A stretch of DNA of 42,062 nt from a virus. The stretch covers positions 1 through 42,062 of the IMG/VR virus record IMGVR_UViG_3300044675_001844. One strand, given 5' to 3'. The translations under genes were made by a program, and so were the position numbers. Shown piece after piece: positions 3,137-32,784 of this stretch (within the stretch, counting starts at the first letter, position 1; every line of letters begins with the position of its first letter). Under the pieces are notes generated by a model. The model searched no databases, had not been told where the DNA came from, and saw nothing but the letters and a program-made list of their open reading frames with translations.

Positions 3137-5577
3137 CACTCCTGACTCAGCAACAGATTGAAGAGACAATGTACTACGGCGGTATTCGCCGTGCAGAAAA
3201 CGCTATGGCCCGCGCCGAAGACCAAGGCCGCGCCGATCAAAACCCCTATGCTAAGGAGATTTTTCGTGAGTATGTGTTACCTCTTGCAGCCGCAATCCAA
3301 GCTGACGTTACCGCCAAAAGAGCAGGCCGTCGCCAAGCCCACGTTATGCTACTTAGTGGCCTCGACCCCGAAGCTGTTGCCTTTCTCGCTGTGCGCCATG
3401 CCGTCACCAACCTCCTTGGCAGCAAGGCCTGTGACCACCGTAGCATAGGCTATGGCATAGGCCGTACCGTACACCGCGAGCTAGTCCTATCACAGATCAA
3501 GGACGCAGCACCAGAGCTTTACCAGACACTCGCCCAAGACCTAGGCCGCAGGCTTAGCCGGGATGAGCGCCACAGGCTCACGGTGTTTAGCATGCAGGCC
3601 AAGCAAAAGGGTATCGAGATTGTCGAGTGGAACATCGGCAGCCGCGAGCAAGTGGGGTTCTACCTCATGGGGCTGCTAGAGACTGCTGGCCTTATATCCA
3701 TTGGCACAGAAGTACGTAGTGGCTACAAGCGGGATGCCCGAGAGATCGGCCTACATCCTGACGTTATTGAGCAGATCAGCAAGGTCAAGGCCTACGTGTC
3801 GCTGACCATGCCAGTATACGGCCCTTGCGTAGAGCGCCCTATCGACTGGGAGTTTGGCGTAACGGGGGGATTCCATACCCGTGAAATGGTGAGGGCCAAT
3901 CCTACCCTAGTGCATGGTCGATCTACGGCCCGCCGCCGTGGGCGTGAGCAAGACATGCCTACCGTACTGGCTGCGGTCAACGCCTTGCAGCGTACAGCGT
4001 GGGCAGTCAATGTGCGCATGCTAAACACCGTGTACGCAGTCGCCGCCGAGTTCTCGACCAAAGAGATTGTCAGCCTAGCCGATACACCTGCACCGCCGAA
4101 GCCTGAGTGGCTTAAGGAAGAGTGGACTAAGGCACCCAAGGACACATGGCCCGCTGACAAGCTAGCCGAGTTCCGGTCATGGAAACATGAAACTGCTGAG
4201 TGGCACACCCAGCGTAAGCTACTCGGCTCTCGCTATGCCCGTTTCTACTCAGCTACCCGGGCGGCAGAAATGTTCCGAGAGTACCCCGCTATCTACTTTG
4301 TGTACTTTGCAGACAGCCGGGGCAGACTTTACCCGCTTACTCAGGGCATAAGCCCTCAAGGCTCTGACCTTAGTAAGTCTCTGATTCATTTTGCCGAGGG
4401 CAAGCCCATCACGGACAGCTACGCTAAGCGCTGGTTCTTCGTGCAGGGTGCTAACAAGTGGGGCTTCGATAAGGCTACCCTAGCCGAGCGTGAAGACTGG
4501 GTAAAGGAGAGACATGACCTCATCATGTCGTTCGCTGGCGACCCCGTTAACAATACTGGCTGGACGGAGGCTGGCGACCCTTTACAGTTCCTAGCGTGGT
4601 GCTTTGAGTATGAGCAGTACACGTTAAATCCAACGGAGTTCAAGTCGCACTTGCCTATCAGCATGGACGGTAGCTGTAACGGTCTGCAAAACCTCAGCGC
4701 TATGTTTCGCGACGAGGTAGGTGGTGCAGCTACAAACCTGACTGCCAACAAGGTGATGCGTGACATTTATGGGGATGTGGCTAAGGCCGCTACGGTAAGG
4801 CTAGCTGCCATGCTGGTTACCGCCGAAGACCCAGTAGAGCGAGCGCTCATCCAAAAGTGGCTAGAGTTCGGAATTGACCGCAAGGCTGTCAAGCGCAGCG
4901 TGATGACCACACCCTATGGCGTGACCGAGCGCACCGCCACCGAGTATGTGATCGACGACTACCTGCGGGAGAAGCTGGGGCCTACGTTTGACCCACAGGA
5001 ATACCGCAAGGCTGCTCGCTTGCTGATGGCTGCCGTATGGCCCGCCATTGGGGACGTAGTGGTTAAGGGCCGCGCTGCTATGGACTGGCTCAAGAAGTCT
5101 GCTAGGATTATTATGAAGGATAAGTCTAACGACACTATCCAGTGGGTAACTCCCTCGGGCTTTCCAGCCTGCCAAGACTACTTCGAGTCTACAGTACACC
5201 GCATCAATACCTTGCTGCATGGCCCGGTAAAGATCAGGGTTAGCTCGGAGACAGACGAGCCGGACAAAGCGCGGCATGCTAGCGGGCTGGCACCAAACTT
5301 TGTGCATAGCCTAGACGCAGCCCACTTGCATCTCACGACAGCCGATGCTGCCAAGCAGGGTATCACTGCGCTAGCGATGATTCACGATGACTACGGCACT
5401 CATGCGGCTGATGCTCAGAAGCTCTTTGACACTATCCGCAAGCAGTTCGTAGCCATGTATCTAGCTTGCGACCCTCCTGCTGACTTCGCCGCCAAGTATC
5501 CGTGCATCCCTGAGCCGCCACCGAAAGGCAGCTTAGACATTATGGATGTGCTCGAATCAGATTTCTTCTTTAGCTAA
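3133..5577 (+). CDS. T7-like single-subunit DNA-directed RNA polymerase (814 aa)
   Basis: This transcribes the phage middle and late genes from phage-specific promoters. Catalytic residues align with T7 RNAP: D512 in MDGSCNGLQN (motif A), K587 and Y595 in KRSVMTTPYG (motif B, with the same eight-residue spacing as T7 K631/Y639), and D752 in IHDDYGTH (motif C). The DSRGRLYP region near 395 is also typical. The segment from about 675 to 720 corresponds to the promoter-specificity loop. Length is slightly below T7 RNAP. The start overlaps the ligase stop. The location directly before the structural genes is the phiKMV-type arrangement. The first base after its stop begins a candidate phage promoter. 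Confidence 0.97.
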   Translation: MTLLTQQQIEETMYYGGIRRAENAMARAEDQGRADQNPYAKEIFREYVLPLAAAIQADVTAKRAGRRQAHVMLLSGLDPEAVAFLAVRHAVTNLLGSKACDHRSIGYGIGRTVHRELVLSQIKDAAPELYQTLAQDLGRRLSRDERHRLTVFSMQAKQKGIEIVEWNIGSREQVGFYLMGLLETAGLISIGTEVRSGYKRDAREIGLHPDVIEQISKVKAYVSLTMPVYGPCVERPIDWEFGVTGGFHTREMVRANPTLVHGRSTARRRGREQDMPTVLAAVNALQRTAWAVNVRMLNTVYAVAAEFSTKEIVSLADTPAPPKPEWLKEEWTKAPKDTWPADKLAEFRSWKHETAEWHTQRKLLGSRYARFYSATRAAEMFREYPAIYFVYFADSRGRLYPLTQGISPQGSDLSKSLIHFAEGKPITDSYAKRWFFVQGANKWGFDKATLAEREDWVKERHDLIMSFAGDPVNNTGWTEAGDPLQFLAWCFEYEQYTLNPTEFKSHLPISMDGSCNGLQNLSAMFRDEVGGAATNLTANKVMRDIYGDVAKAATVRLAAMLVTAEDPVERALIQKWLEFGIDRKAVKRSVMTTPYGVTERTATEYVIDDYLREKLGPTFDPQEYRKAARLLMAAVWPAIGDVVVKGRAAMDWLKKSARIIMKDKSNDTIQWVTPSGFPACQDYFESTVHRINTLLHGPVKIRVSSETDEPDKARHASGLAPNFVHSLDAAHLHLTTADAAKQGITALAMIHDDYGTHAADAQKLFDTIRKQFVAMYLACDPPADFAAKYPCIPEPPPKGSLDIMDVLESDFFFS

Positions 5578-5778: not shown

Positions 5779-6215
5779 GGCCCGCTACCTACGACGATCT
5801 TCCGCAGATCGCTGCGGCTGGAGAGCGCCTAGCCGTCTACGCCACCAAGTATGGTTGGGTCGGCAAGGTGGATTACCAGCAGGCCATTACCAACCTAATG
5901 GCCTACGTGGAGCAAGGCAAGGCGTATGTTGTCGGTGGCTACATAGTATTCATCGACGAGATTCAGCCGTGGTGGTCGCCTATCGGGACTAAGGTACTGC
6001 AAGAGTGGCTGGTCATGCGGGTTGGGAACACCGTACCGGAAGGCGTTAACGTGTTGCCCACTGCCCTGCTTGAGATAGCCGCCTCTCGGGGCTGTGTTGG
6101 GGTATTAGGCGGGGACAGCTCCCCAGTCAGCATCGTGGCTAAGGCTTACGAGGATGCTGGTTGGCAGTCACTTACAAAATCATTTTACAAAGAGGTAACT
6201 AATGGCGTTCGTTAA
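5775..6215 (+). CDS. GNAT-like N-acetyltransferase fold protein (146 aa)
   Basis: The N-terminus MRPATYDDLPQIAA and the C-terminal AKAYEDAGWQS...FYKEV pattern are characteristic of the GNAT acetyltransferase fold. The classical acetyl-CoA loop (Q/RxxGxG/A) is not obvious; the region around GVLGGDSS could fill it. T7 also carries a GNAT-like protein (gp13) in its morphogenesis region, so a structural or assembly role is possible. Start and stop both overlap neighbours, placing it in one operon with the gp7.3-like and portal genes. Confidence 0.6.
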   Translation: MRPATYDDLPQIAAAGERLAVYATKYGWVGKVDYQQAITNLMAYVEQGKAYVVGGYIVFIDEIQPWWSPIGTKVLQEWLVMRVGNTVPEGVNVLPTALLEIAASRGCVGVLGGDSSPVSIVAKAYEDAGWQSLTKSFYKEVTNGVR

Positions 6216-8785: not shown

Positions 8786-8792
8786 CCACAGT

Positions 8793-8867
8793 CCTGTGTG
8801 AGTGATTTAGTACCTGTAGTACAAGACCTAGCCATCCGGCTCGGTGTTTAACCGTCACTTACACAGG
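8793..8867 (+). promoter_or_regulatory. Inverted repeat enclosing the capsid promoter and overlapping the capsid ribosome binding site
   Basis: The left arm CCTGTGTGAGTGA (8793-8805) and right arm TCACTTACACAGG (8855-8867) pair over 13 positions with a single G-U. The right arm covers the first three bases of the AGGAG ribosome binding site (8865-8869) of the capsid gene. The phage promoter motif 8807-8822 lies between the arms, so transcripts starting there lack the left arm. A transcript-origin-dependent translational switch is inferred. Confidence 0.65.
8807..8822 (+). promoter_or_regulatory. Candidate phage RNA polymerase promoter P2 (capsid)
   Basis: TTAGTACCTGTAGTAC fits the five-copy motif. 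It lies 52 bases upstream of the major capsid ATG, where T7-like phages place their strongest promoter (T7 phi10). Confidence 0.7.
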
Positions 8868-8874
8868 AGCTTAA

Positions 8875-9878: not shown

Positions 9879-9960
9879 TGCTAGCCCCTGCCACAAGCGG
9901 GGGCTTGTGTATACGAACTTGCTAGCCCGCCTCTTAACAATGCGCAACGTGCTAGCCCCT
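9879..9960 (+). repeat. Three non-coding copies of TGCTAGCCC and a 9-bp hairpin after the capsid gene
   Basis: The nonamer TGCTAGCCC occurs at 9879, 9920 and 9950 between the capsid stop and the terminator. The first copy is part of a stem-loop (9883-9905, nine pairs including one G-U, loop CACAA). No poly-T follows, so it is not by itself an intrinsic terminator; it could stabilise or process the capsid transcript. Confidence 0.55.
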
Positions 9961-9965
9961 ACTTA

Positions 9966-9991
9966 CCCCTCCTAACCGGAGGGGTTTTTTT
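9966..9991 (+). terminator. Intrinsic terminator after the capsid gene
   Basis: Perfect seven-pair stem CCCCTCC/GGAGGGG with loop TAACC followed by seven T residues. The position corresponds to T7 T-phi, which attenuates transcription after gene 10. The same stem recurs before the tail fibre gene (20962). Confidence 0.9.
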
Positions 9992-20955: not shown

Positions 20956-20961
20956 AACTTA

Positions 20962-20988
20962 CCCCTCCCTAACCGGAGGGGTTTCTTT
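20962..20988 (+). terminator. Terminator-like hairpin before the tail fibre gene
   Basis: Stem CCCCTCC/GGAGGGG (20962-20968 with 20975-20981), loop CTAACC, followed by TTTCTTT. The stem is identical to the terminator after the capsid gene. It follows promoter P3 immediately, so it may either attenuate or act as a 5' hairpin of the tail fibre transcript. Confidence 0.7.
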
Positions 20989-27680: not shown

Positions 27681-27685
27681 CGCTT

Positions 27686-27709
27686 ATTAGCTGATGCTAA
27701 TTTTATTAT
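27686..27709 (+). terminator. Weak intrinsic terminator at the end of the late region
   Basis: Stem ATTAGC/GCTAAT (27686-27691 with 27696-27701), loop TGAT, followed by an AT-rich tract beginning TTTATTAT. The stem has only two G-C pairs, but it is six bases after the last late gene and at the edge of a 1.47-kb gene-free region. Confidence 0.5.
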
Positions 27710-28084
27710 AAATTTGCGAGGGGGCACCTCCAACTAATCCCACCCTAGTTTCCCCCAGTGGCCTACTGCGCGGGGCTGGGTGGGCTGGCTAGAGGGCCTA
27801 CAGCAGGCGCCGGGCTTGGGCCGGTATGTAGCCCTAGGCCGGGCAGATTGTAGGCCTTCACGGGCCTATAAACGGCCTTGCCGGGCCTGTAGCGCATGGC
27901 TCACAGTGTGGGCGCGGGCGTGTGGGTATCTGTTTGCTTGTTGCCTACTGTTTGCGCTTTGCTGCCTGATAGGCTTACACATTGCCTAGTGTTGCTAGCC
28001 TGTAGGCTTGATGCTTAGCCTTGCCGTAGTCGCTGCCGCTCCATTGGCCTCATCTCTCTGCCATGCTACGGGCAAAGGTTAGAT
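27710..28084. other. GC-rich palindromic gene-free stretch, candidate location of the physical genome end
   Basis: No convincing gene. The segment is much more GC-rich than what follows and repeats GGCC-centred words: GGGCCTAC at 27795, CCTAGGCC near 27834, TAGGCCTTCACGGGCCTA (a six-pair hairpin near 27851-27868) and GGGCCTGTAG near 27882. A 69-codon open frame from a GTG at 27780 has a hydrophobic end but no convincing ribosome binding site and a repetitive, biased composition; I do not call it. Position between the late terminator and the early promoters is where T7-like genomes begin and end. Confidence 0.45.
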
Positions 28085-28100
28085 TTAGTACCTGTACCAC
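28085..28100 (+). promoter_or_regulatory. Candidate phage RNA polymerase promoter P4 (non-coding region)
   Basis: TTAGTACCTGTACCAC fits the motif. It lies over 1 kb upstream of the first early gene, comparable in position to the T7 phi-OL promoter near the left end, which serves replication or ejection more than gene expression. Confidence 0.62.
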
Positions 28101-28122
28101 CATAACAAACGCTATTCACTAT

Positions 28123-28144
28123 GTAAGCTGCACTGCATCTATTA
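28123..28144 (+). repeat. Second copy of the GTAAGCTG-N2-CTGCATCTAT element
   Basis: Matches 1422-1441 with only the central two bases changed. A partial third copy (GGCTGATTGCATCTATT) lies at 28889-28905. It follows promoter P4 by 22 bases. Function unknown. Confidence 0.55.
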
Positions 28145-28206
28145 GCATCGAGCGGCAGCGAAGATGTAAGCCATAGAAAGCCTGAGAGTACGACTATCCA
28201 CATAGC

Positions 28207-28314
28207 ATAGGACAATAGACTATGCATAGAACTATAGGACAGAGCGAATAGATAAGACTACAGGACTAGACGTATAGAAGGCTATAGGACTAAGCGCTAC
28301 TAGGGCGATAGGAC
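28207..28314 (+). repeat. Five-copy ATAGGAC repeat array, 24-27 bp spacing
   Basis: ATAGGAC or ACAGGAC cores start at 28207, 28234, 28260, 28284 and 28308, i.e. spaced 27, 26, 24 and 24 bp, each inside loosely similar CTA/GAC/TAG-rich sequence. Four copies are ATAGGAC and the third is ACAGGAC. The copy at 28231 reads ACTATAGGACAGAG, reminiscent of the initiation end of T7-type promoters. Iterons for replication initiation, promoter relics or a protein-binding array are all possible. Confidence 0.6.
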
Positions 28315-28460
28315 TATGACTATATAAGATAGCCATACAGATGTAGGCTGTAAGTTAGCTGTAAGGTTAGAGATATACAATAGCGGCATGCTAGTAAACA
28401 ACTAGATGCTTACAGTCTACGACTGAAGGCTATAGCAGGCTACAAAGCATGAACTAAATG

Positions 28461-28471
28461 TGTGATACAAT
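28461..28471 (+). promoter_or_regulatory. Candidate host promoter, extended -10 (TGTGATACAAT)
   Basis: TACAAT at 28466-28471 follows TGTGA. The same TGTGATACAAT word recurs at 28599-28609. No convincing -35 is seen for this copy. Another TACAAT box, without context, is at 28376-28381. Confidence 0.4.
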
Positions 28472-28580
28472 GCATACATGGTTGACTAGATAGTGCTAGC
28501 GCTTAACGATACTAAGCGCCTAATGGGTTGAAGATGTAGGCCTAACGCATATCTGTAAATGTTGACCTAGCGAAGCTTAA

Positions 28581-28609
28581 TTGCTGAGCGTTGCAAAGTG
28601 TGATACAAT
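28581..28609 (+). promoter_or_regulatory. Candidate host sigma70 early promoter (TTGCTG-17-TACAAT)
   Basis: -35 TTGCTG (28581-28586), a 17-bp spacer and -10 TACAAT (28604-28609), with TGTGA extending the -10. Host-polymerase promoters upstream of the first gene are expected in this phage group. Confidence 0.6.
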
Positions 28610-28659
28610 AGCGTACCGATTAGCTGACAATCGAAGATTGAAGGCTTAAGGTAGCTGGG

Positions 28660-28688
28660 TTGCAAGTAGTGTTTAAGTATGCTACAAT
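28660..28688 (+). promoter_or_regulatory. Candidate host sigma70 early promoter (TTGCAA-17-TACAAT)
   Basis: -35 TTGCAA (28660-28665), an exact 17-bp spacer and -10 TACAAT (28683-28688), with TGC before the box. It is the last of the cluster before the first early gene and the best match to consensus. Confidence 0.65.
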
Positions 28689-28707
28689 GCAGCCATGTTA
28701 GATTAAA

Positions 28708-28723
28708 TGTGATGTGAATCACA
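28708..28723. promoter_or_regulatory. Perfect TGTGA-N6-TCACA site (CRP-like)
   Basis: TGTGA (28708-28712), six bases, TCACA (28719-28723): the consensus of cAMP receptor protein half-sites with correct spacing. It starts 20 bases downstream of the -10 box at 28683, within the expected transcript start region, so binding there would be expected to block, not activate. It may also be a chance palindrome. Confidence 0.4.
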
Positions 28724-29040
28724 AAGGGTTATACGGTGATACAGGCAAGGCTTAATGGTCTATCTGTAGAGCTTTATGGCTTATGACGGCTTTGATGATA
28801 GATGGCAAGGGTATACCTGCGCCAAGTGCTCTCCACGTTGCACGTTCTATCTATGCCCGATGGGAAGTAACAGAGTAGATGCTGTATAGGCTGATTGCAT
28901 CTATTGTTTGGCTTACTGAGCTTGTATCTATTAAGATGCTTTGTGATGTAAGGTTAATCCATGCGATAGAGTTTCATGAGGATACTTAGCAGCGAATACC
29001 TACGGGTTATATACTAGCTTATTGAGGCTAACTGTTACAG
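28724..29040. other. Gene-free leader region before the first early gene
   Basis: I see no supported gene here. A 36-codon frame from ATG 28879 to 28989 exists but has a poor ribosome binding site. The stretch holds a partial copy of the CTGCATCTAT element (28889-28905) and is otherwise unremarkable and relatively AT-rich. Confidence 0.4.
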
Positions 29041-29130
29041 GATAGATTGAGTCTATCTGTAAACGTATCTTTGATGTATCAGCTTGAGTGCATGATCTAT
29101 AGATACGTTTACAGCTAGGCTTTTCTAGCT
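29041..29130 (+). promoter_or_regulatory. Structured leader with 14-bp perfect inverted repeat upstream of the first early gene
   Basis: CTGTAAACGTATCT (29057-29070) and AGATACGTTTACAG (29101-29114) are perfect reverse complements 30 bases apart. They are bordered by a hairpin on the left (GATAGA/TCTATC, 29041-29057) and one on the right (AGCTAG/CTAGCT, 29113-29130). The block ends 21 bases before the ATG of the first early gene. It may be a stabilising RNA leader or a DNA operator with two half-sites. Confidence 0.6.
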
Positions 29131-29151
29131 TAACTTAAATGAGGTGATTAA

Positions 29152-29655
29152 ATGGATACAAAAGAACTGAATAGCCGTATTGATGCTCTTGGCCGTGCTA
29201 ACCTTAAGGTGGAGAGTGACATTCACGAATTAGGCATGGCTTGCCTTGAGCATACCGAAAAGCACGGCGACACTATGCCAATGAACCGCTTGGTTAATGT
29301 GCTGCGCCGTACACAGCATCAAGCATTCTTAGAGTGGGCAATGGCCTTCGGTAAGTTTGTCAAGAATACTGACAAGGTTACAAAGGCTAGCCAGCCCTTG
29401 GTTTATGCTAAGGGCAAAACAACAGACATTGAGGCTGCAAGCGCTAAGCCTTGGTTTATGTTCGCTGACGATAAAGCCACAGCTACGGCTAAGGCTTTTG
29501 ACTTCCAAGTGGCTATGATGCAACTGCTTAAGAAAGCTGCGTCTAATGGTGTAGACCATGACAAGCTCGTGAAGGTTGCTGCATTGGCTGATATTGCACC
29601 AGAGAAGGTGCCAGCTACGGTGACTGCACCGGCTGTAGGTGAAGCGCTTGTTTAA
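29152..29655 (+). CDS. First early protein, hypothetical (167 aa)
   Basis: A soluble, largely helical protein without recognised motifs. The N-terminal 70 residues are rich in Glu, Leu and His, and the end is Pro/Ala/Val-rich. The strong ribosome binding site (GAGGTGA) and its place as the first gene after the host promoters mark it as the first product made after infection. Proteins in this position usually act on host functions, but nothing in the sequence shows which. Confidence 0.8.
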   Translation: MDTKELNSRIDALGRANLKVESDIHELGMACLEHTEKHGDTMPMNRLVNVLRRTQHQAFLEWAMAFGKFVKNTDKVTKASQPLVYAKGKTTDIEAASAKPWFMFADDKATATAKAFDFQVAMMQLLKKAASNGVDHDKLVKVAALADIAPEKVPATVTAPAVGEALV

Positions 29656-29746
29656 GCTAATAGTAGGTGAGGCCGAGTATGAGTTTGAGCATGCACCGTG
29701 GGGCTATTGGCCTTTACGTACAGGACCAGTGCTACTGCGAGCGTAG
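29648..29746 (+). CDS. Possible micro-ORF with TTG start (32 aa)
   Basis: This frame overlaps the end of the previous gene and the next small ORF. From a TTG preceded by AGGTGA it reads MFKLIVGEAEYEFEHAPWGY and then WPLRTGPVLLRA. The composition looks protein-like and recalls the small protein at 34798. The start codon is weak and it competes with the ORF at 29679, so I give it low confidence. Confidence 0.28.
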   Translation: MFKLIVGEAEYEFEHAPWGYWPLRTGPVLLRA

Positions 29747-29801
29747 CTTTACATGCGGCTATTGCTGCCGTAACGCTAAGCCTTGGCATTGGACTAAGTG
29801 A
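29679..29801 (+). CDS. Small Cys-rich protein (40 aa)
   Basis: ATG preceded by GGTGAGG at a good distance. The middle is CYCERSFTCGYCCRN: five cysteines in a 13-residue span (C18, C20, C26, C29, C30), which could bind a zinc ion. It ends in KPWHWTK. No family recognised. Overlaps the possible TTG ORF at 29648 in another frame. Confidence 0.5.
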   Translation: MSLSMHRGAIGLYVQDQCYCERSFTCGYCCRNAKPWHWTK

Positions 29802-29874
29802 GTTTACCAAGTTGCCTACTCTCACGAGTGGGCTTCTTAGTGCACTCCCGCACTGTTTTAGAGGAACTGTGTAT

Positions 29875-30279
29875 ATGAATGACAAGGACTCCCTGTATGC
29901 CTTTAATAAAGCCATGTCTCCAGCGCCCAAGGTGCGCCATACGGTGCATGATGCCTGCTATGTGGAGGTAGCAGCCGTAGACCATGCGGCCCGTGCTGCC
30001 GAGTTGCGCCGTGCTGCTGAGGTAGAAGACGAACGCCATGCGGCGCAAGTTGCCCTTGACGCTAAGGTGGCTAAGTTGGCTGATGATATCGTGCTTGCTA
30101 ACGTCACTGGCTCGCTTTTAGTTGACCTGCGCAAGCTGGTTAAGGGCGAGACTGCCCATGTTGCTGCTCAAGTGTCGTATGCTGACTACCGCAAGCAGCT
30201 TGCACCTTTGGCTGAGTCTTACGGCTACAAGCTCACCTTAGTTGGTGACAAGACCAAGGCCGCGCTAACTGTTATCTAA
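29875..30279 (+). CDS. Hypothetical early protein, Ala-rich coiled coil (134 aa)
   Basis: I start at ATG 29875 (GAGGA ten bases upstream). The frame is open further upstream, but that part overlaps the Cys-rich ORF and reads as non-native. Residues 35-75 form a charged Ala-rich helix or coiled coil. The C-terminal part (YADYRKQLAPLAESYGYKLTL) looks like a small alpha/beta domain. No recognised family. The last gene before the hairpin-dense gene-free segment. Confidence 0.7.
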   Translation: MNDKDSLYAFNKAMSPAPKVRHTVHDACYVEVAAVDHAARAAELRRAAEVEDERHAAQVALDAKVAKLADDIVLANVTGSLLVDLRKLVKGETAHVAAQVSYADYRKQLAPLAESYGYKLTLVGDKTKAALTVI

Positions 30280-30745
30280 TCAGCATAGCGAGTTGCCCAT
30301 TAGCAATAGTGGGCTTCTCAGTATGTTGGGCAATAGCCTAATAATTCGTTTAAGTCGTAACAGGCTTACGCAACGGCTCTAGTAACCGGACTGAAACCGC
30401 CGATAATGTAGGCGCATTAAGCTGGAATCCGATAAAGGCATAATCTGACATACTACTTTGGGCACCCAACTACAAGGGCAAGCGTCTTGCGTTGAACACA
30501 ACATCGCGGGAACTTGATGCCATGCCTTTAGCATACTTCCGGCGTAATAGTTGGAATGCCGCCAGCTCTTACCAATTCTTAGATGGCGTTAATCTGTGAG
30601 AATGGTGGCCTTCCTCTCCATCATGAGGCTGCGAAGACAAGCATGGTCTAGCGTAAGCTCACAATGCCGTAGAGCTTAGCGTTAAAAGCCGTCAGCTTGA
30701 CGTAAACTGCCCTGCGTTCTGTGCATGTTGCGAAAGCTACACAGG
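30280..30745 (+). ncRNA. Hairpin-dense gene-free segment, possible structured RNA
   Basis: No ORF of useful length on either strand. Short perfect hairpins are packed along it: GCCCA/TGGGC (30295-30314), a two-step stem CGTT..CGTAA/TTACG..AACG (30347-30375), CGCC/GGCG (30398-30414), GCAAG/CTTGC with triloop CGT (30478-30490), AGC-GTAA-GCT (30650-30659), CGTCA/TGACG with triloop GCT (30690-30702) and GC-GAAA-GC (30730-30737). TGGGCAA at 30327 could also pair with TTGCCCA at 30293, an alternative fold for the first hairpin. Preceded and followed by ordinary early genes, so it is presumably transcribed. Confidence 0.5.
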
Positions 30746-30841
30746 ACAAAGGTGCACATCTTAATCAGCGAAAGCTAATCCCATGTCTACTAGACAGCGC
30801 ACTTATAATGCAGTGCAGGAGTTTAGGGTGTGCACCTTTGT
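30746..30841 (+). ncRNA. Cloverleaf-like structured element closed by a 13-bp perfect stem
   Basis: ACAAAGGTGCACA (30746-30758) and TGTGCACCTTTGT (30829-30841) are perfect complements. Between them lie three local hairpins in order: AGC-GAAA-GCT (30767-30776), TGTCT-ACT-AGACA (30784-30796) and GCACT/AGTGC (30799-30816, eight-base loop containing TATAAT). The whole is 96 nt and ends 20 bases before the ATG of the gene at 30862, leaving its AAGGAG site free. It does not fit a tRNA (no T-loop, closing stem too long). A leader RNA, processing substrate or independent small RNA is possible. Confidence 0.6.
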
Positions 30842-30861
30842 TAACCAACTAAGGAGAACCT

Positions 30862-31137
30862 ATGAACATCCATGAAGCAGCCATTGAGATTCTACACTCT
30901 GCCGCACTTCCAAGCCTAGGCTCAGCCGGGTTGTGTTATGCTCTACAAGCGCAAATGAGGTTGCGTCAAGGTAACGTAATCGACAGCGCCTATCTCCAGA
31001 TGCACGATCTAACTATTAGTAGAGAGGGTGCTTACCCACATAGCGACTACTATTTAGGAGAGCGCGGGCAATGGACGGAGGCACGCCTTAACACCATCAT
31101 CTTGCTAGCCATTACCACACCGGAGGATTTTATATGA
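30862..31137 (+). CDS. Hypothetical early protein (91 aa)
   Basis: Strong AAGGAG site upstream, directly after the structured element. The protein is soluble, with helical N-terminal half (IHEAAIEILHSAALPSL) and a TARLNTIILLAITTPEDF-like end (WTEARLNTIILLA). No known motif. Its stop overlaps the next ATG (ATGA at 31134), so the two are probably co-translated. Confidence 0.72.
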   Translation: MNIHEAAIEILHSAALPSLGSAGLCYALQAQMRLRQGNVIDSAYLQMHDLTISREGAYPHSDYYLGERGQWTEARLNTIILLAITTPEDFI

Positions 31138-32651: not shown

Positions 32652-32681
32652 GTAGCCTAGCTAGGTAGAGCCTAGATGGTT

Positions 32682-32711
32682 GGGCACAGCGAATGAGAAG
32701 TAACTGTGCCC
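32682..32711 (+). promoter_or_regulatory. Perfect 8-bp hairpin GGGCACAG/CTGTGCCC
   Basis: Stem 32682-32689 with 32704-32711, 14-base loop, in the 183-base gap after the coiled-coil gene. No T-tract. Possible transcript processing or 3' stabilising structure. Confidence 0.5.
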
Positions 32712-32784
32712 CTCCACCTACGCTTTAGTTAAGTTAAAGAAGTTTTGTGAGAACATGTTAAACAAGTTATCTTGTTTGTAGAGC

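Follow-up and report, generated by a model that had tools for sequence, protein, structure and literature searches.

Analysis of a viral DNA of 42,062 nucleotides (hereafter the window) indicates that the 96-nt block at 30746-30841 is a candidate RNase III-type processing site of the early polycistronic transcript of a T7-like phage, a reading by analogy with T7 to which we assign a probability of about 0.6. The window, a virus record of IMG/VR, belongs to a T7-family (Autographiviridae-like) phage with genes for DNA polymerase, primase and exonuclease, and its relatives include Curvibacter phage P26059B (Autographiviridae), Macromonas phage BK-30P (Autographiviridae, Krylovirinae) and several IMG/VR contigs. 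We observed the stem itself, how it ranks genome-wide, where it lies, and that relatives carry a covarying hairpin family at the corresponding place; the best reading is that the block has diverged from this family in both sequence and shape.

The ends of the block, ACAAAGGTGCACA and TGTGCACCTTTGT, pair perfectly over 13 bp, which confirms the coordinates and the terminal pairing given in an earlier note on this DNA. When G-U pairs are allowed, the stem grows to 20 uninterrupted pairs on the plus strand (30745-30842), in which 30745-30764 pairs with 30823-30842 and 58 nt are left as the loop; a helix of about 12 bp or more is expected of a T7-type RNase III site. This is the longest uninterrupted stem of the genome (plus strand, within 120 nt), and shuffled genomes contain a mean of 0.05 stems of at least 19 bp; stem counts that allowed loose internal loops gave no discrimination. 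The minimum free energy of 30746-30841 in RNAfold is -39.5 kcal/mol, compared with -22.0 +/- 3.1 for shuffled sequences (z -5.7), and the block ranks first among 1749 windows of 96 nt by folding z (-7.5, a rough value since only 20 shuffles were made per window). Noncoding DNA makes up 8.3% of the window but accounts for eight of the ten 96-nt windows that fold most strongly. The minus strand of the block also folds well, and its stem ends at 13 bp because the G-U pairs turn into A-C. A long intergenic stem of this kind could also be a transcription terminator or attenuator, but no U-tract follows it, no terminator-like call was made at the block, and canonical terminator-like hairpins with T-runs occur elsewhere in the genome, which leaves this explanation with hardly any probability.

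The only above-chance structure in the block is the long stem. The inner loop region (30765-30822, plus strand) is predicted to form the three hairpins of the earlier note, one with a GAAA tetraloop, and the folding energy of these 58 nt is no better than expected by chance (-12.0 versus -10.6 +/- 2.6 in 1000 shuffles; z -0.53, p 0.29). This makes the element a very long stem whose loop is ordinary, with no demonstrated cloverleaf, and the three inner hairpins are probably an incidental filling of the loop. The block resembles tRNA-like cloverleaves and Rfam families in its predicted four-way junction, and differs from them in its chance-level interior and its lack of ARAGORN or Rfam matches. 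ARAGORN found no tRNA or tmRNA in the block, in agreement with the statement that it is not a tRNA, and no Rfam riboswitch, leader or small RNA was matched at the gathering score or at E<=10. The predicted junction and its GAAA loop would fit a leader switch acting in cis or a separate structured RNA of 96 nt whose cloverleaf is functional, but the cloverleaf of the earlier note is absent from every relative found, and this together with the interior and the failed Rfam and tRNA searches makes both forms of the idea highly improbable. In addition, the ribosome-binding site is not sequestered and the block holds no conserved core, so that a switch gained no support; nor did a small RNA of these 96 nt, for which the adjoining noncoding stretch at 30331-30745 is the candidate instead.

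The block is located 3' of the early genes at 29152-29655 (phrog_1448) and 29875-30279, and ends a stretch of 580 nt in which no genes are evident. As previously described, it stops 20 nt before a gene with a free AAGGAG site: the ribosome-binding site (30851-30856, plus strand) lies outside the stem and the ATG is at 30862. This gene (30862-31137, plus strand) encodes an early protein of 91 aa with no Pfam or PHROG family and no relative found in IMG/VR. Assuming co-transcription, the block is thus intergenic and shortly precedes the ribosome-binding site of the next gene. Ahead of the early genes there is about 1.4 kb of gene-free DNA (27681-29151), to which P26059B has a similar stretch, and repeated GATACAAT/GCTACAAT strings resembling -10 boxes are found at 28460-28690. 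Two terminator-like hairpins that are nearly identical (ACCCCTCC...GGAGGGGT, with a T-rich run behind) are present at 9960-9990 and 20961-20985, before genes 10009 and 21002.

In relatives, covarying hairpins of about 20 bp precede many early genes and also occupy the place of the 96-nt block. They are built of 8 + 3 + 6 or more pairs, split by two 2x2 internal loops. In alignment A3, which comprises 26 ungapped copies with loops trimmed to four letters, partly common to related genomes, the 17 pairs are 94% paired and show 105 two-sided changes compared with 27 in shuffles, a level reached by none of 500 shuffles; the rows were chosen by eye from a larger candidate list that required upper-stem pairing, and lower-stem pairing, although not required by the search, swayed the choice. 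Every slid version of the pairing scored far lower. The covariance model built from A3 (R1) also recovered copies outside its training set, such as L014 8410-8461, L013 6951-7002 and L021 7338-7388. All 41 matches across relatives with E up to 1 are on the transcribed strand, and 21 of the 39 examined are followed within 90 nt by an ORF of at least 35 codons led by a ribosome-binding site, at a median distance of 21 nt, versus 21% of random positions. Many of the remaining matches open the pseudoknot stretch described below or precede shorter ORFs.

Several such sites occur in the window, all on the plus strand. One copy (29798-29849; 41.3 bits) precedes gene 29875, another (30279-30330; 43.8 bits) opens the noncoding stretch, and a weaker one is found at 32666-32727 (25.5 bits filtered; 15.6 bits, E 0.1, unfiltered). 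A small ORF between the early genes (29667-29801; L003 6503-6664), with the conserved end TCGYC..NAKPWHWTK, overlaps a hairpin site at its end. Long stems that are unrelated in sequence lie just before genes elsewhere in the window as well, at 1408-1440, 8792-8868 and 29050-29121; the last (plus strand, before gene 29152) has 21-nt arms with 14 perfect central pairs and is not matched by R1. The 15-bp stem at 8792-8868 has a 47-nt loop, and its 3' arm, ending in ACAGGA, meets the likely ribosome-binding site (AGGAG) of gene 8875, whose translation it could influence besides any role in processing.

The earlier note had proposed a covariance-model search seeded with the loci of relatives, and in this check R1 did not recognise 30746-30841, apart from a spurious 10.6 bits with filters off. 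R1 matches are nevertheless found at the equivalent place, after the pseudoknot stretch and ahead of the next gene, in L002, L003, L012 and L013; in L009, the closest relative, this place is taken by a simple hairpin of about 17 bp. Neither a stem-pattern search of viral contigs nor blastn against phages detected a homologue of the block, and a MAFFT alignment of it with the relatives' hairpins was ambiguous; the covariation evidence belongs to the hairpin family and not to the block's own pairs. An economical reading of these sequences is that the site underwent sequence turnover and retained long dsRNA, the outcome one would expect for an RNase III target.

The early sites of T7 (R0.3, R0.5, R1, R1.1 and R1.3) lie between genes on the transcribed strand, at 25-35 nt from the early gene that follows, and have about 15-20 paired bases, and the block is similar in these respects. 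The T7 sites are hairpins with an internal loop, whereas the block is an uninterrupted 20-bp helix with a 58-nt loop; the family copies of the clade share the T7 build of upper stem, internal loop and lower stem, as seen when the folded T7 upper stems (R1.1 GGTCATTCgcaaGAGTGGCC; R0.5 GGTCGCTCctagcGAGTGGCC) are compared with that of L014 (GGTCATACcctcgGTGTGGCC). For this folding we used what we take to be the T7 positions of the early sites other than R1.1. No sequence relation to the T7 sites was detectable and R1 recognised none of them, just as it did not score the block, so that the likeness is one of architecture and place and not of proven common descent. RNase III sites in the early region of T7 provide the precedent (PMC4858673, PMC8708148), among them R1.1 at 5887 (PMC8708148).

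A helix of 12 bp is enough for single-strand cutting of R1.1 derivatives, and the fully paired variant R1.1[WC-L] is cut on both strands (PMC8708148). This variant has an uninterrupted helix like that of the block; it is artificial, whereas the block is natural, has a different sequence and a large loop. By analogy with its uninterrupted helix, the block may therefore be cut on both strands. An alternative is that the stem remains uncut and protective, keeping exonucleases away from the upstream RNA at its 3' end, or RNase E from entering the downstream mRNA at its 5' end. Its great stability, its position next to a free ribosome-binding site and the lack of conservation in the loop region are consistent with such a role, but 20 bp of unbroken dsRNA would be expected to attract RNase III, given the 12 bp that suffice in R1.1 derivatives (PMC8708148), and we consider protection rather unlikely. 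In two relatives, early kinase genes located after the pseudoknot region (L007, the same as L012, 6026-6595; L001 6409-7041) match phrog_15752, annotated as a T7-type kinase that positively regulates RNase III; no kinase was found among the early proteins of the window that were scanned. Among the functions listed in the earlier note, RNase III substrate is consequently the best supported, by the 20-bp dsRNA at the position of the family and the kinase in two relatives, with the failure of R1 to match the block counting against it.

The noncoding stretch between the two sites (30331-30745, plus strand) is a candidate processed RNA with blocks conserved in relatives. Its conserved core at 30560-30606 (plus strand; S1 CGCCA/TGGCG, S2 ATTCTTA/TGAGAAT) can form an H-type pseudoknot, with the consensus S1 CGCYA/TRGCG and an S2 of 7-10 bp. 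The core was found at L001 6001-6047, L002 4481-4527, L003 6854-6900, L012 5656-5702 and L013 5451-5497, and also in L015, L017 and L019; it is not in Rfam, was not found in L009 and was not detected by one exact pattern in 84,980 bacterial and archaeal genomes. Across six related sequences, a small set in which much of the signal comes from P26059B, the pairing is present in 92% of the cells, two-sided changes occur in 5 of the 15 pairs, and none of 500 shuffles matches the covariation score; in P26059B itself S2 differs (CTAGTTGTCG/TGACAACTAG) and S1 is kept. A second conserved part (30331-30470), aligned with L002, L003, L013 and L019 in alignment A6, has an invariant CAATAGC following the first site; a hairpin with the loop GATAAYGTA, seen by eye, varies in its stem among the window, L002, L003 and L013 yet stays paired.

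The pseudoknot lies between two R1 matches in L002, L003, L012, L013, L015 and L019, although the downstream match is weak in L019 (E 0.54), and the upstream match of L012 (E 0.0017) and the downstream one of L015 (E 0.0063) are modest. The pseudoknot takes up most of the roughly 76 nt that separate the sites in L012, the sites of L013 are at 5253-5300 and 5504-5567, and in L001 only a downstream site was found beside the pseudoknot. Since copies of the site bracket the pseudoknot in six relatives, one of them weakly, a processed phage RNA is plausible, and a discrete RNA is the natural prediction from this stretch. We tentatively propose that the early transcript would be cut at two RNase III-type sites to release an undescribed phage noncoding RNA (about 30331-30745 here and some 76 nt in L012) organised around the conserved, covarying H-type pseudoknot, and that the 96-nt stem would mark its 3' processing boundary. 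Phages that share the pseudoknot have a first early protein only 31-74% identical to that of the window phage.

The block might instead be part of an antitermination system of the boxA/rrn type that prevents host RNA polymerase from stopping in the untranslated early region. The pseudoknot core of five genomes contains the boxA-like strings GCTCTTAC and GCTCTTTA, the 3' arms of several hairpins contain GTTCTTTAAC, and rrn leaders of related bacteria contain GTTCTTTAAYAA. Hairpins matched two of four rrn leaders at levels reached by 1/60 and 4/60 shuffles, and these marginal matches are weak since several rrn comparisons were made. Mimicry of rrn/boxA by the pseudoknot core, appealing by eye, gained no statistical support, none of the four leaders being significantly similar to the core, and the core of P26059B lacks GCTCTT. 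Compared with the lambda nut and rrn boxA sites, the boxA-like letters are in the first loop of the neighbouring pseudoknot, statistically unsupported, and none are present in the 96-nt block. Antitermination thus appears very unlikely.

According to the RNase III reading, the early polycistronic transcript would carry an intergenic dsRNA site at the block, and host RNase III would cut within the 20-bp stem, as at the T7 early sites. The cut would free the downstream mRNA, with a new 5' end close to the free ribosome-binding site, and would give the upstream noncoding RNA a 3' end at the block. Transcription of the block, its cleavage by RNase III and any effect on translation or stability are what we infer from the observed stem and its setting. 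Literature searches in open-licence papers returned no description of these sites or of the pseudoknot RNA, and the P26059B genome paper makes no mention of promoters, terminators, RNase III or noncoding elements.

The processing site would carry what is known of early-mRNA processing in T7 over to a freshwater-type phage lineage, and the covarying family of sites can be used for annotation. The pseudoknot RNA that the stem would delimit is the more novel part of the finding. It sits among the early genes, the usual place of phage takeover and counter-defence functions, and the cultured relative Curvibacter phage P26059B makes it directly testable. Its accumulation during infection would make it an unusual case of a conserved noncoding RNA in a lytic T7-like phage.
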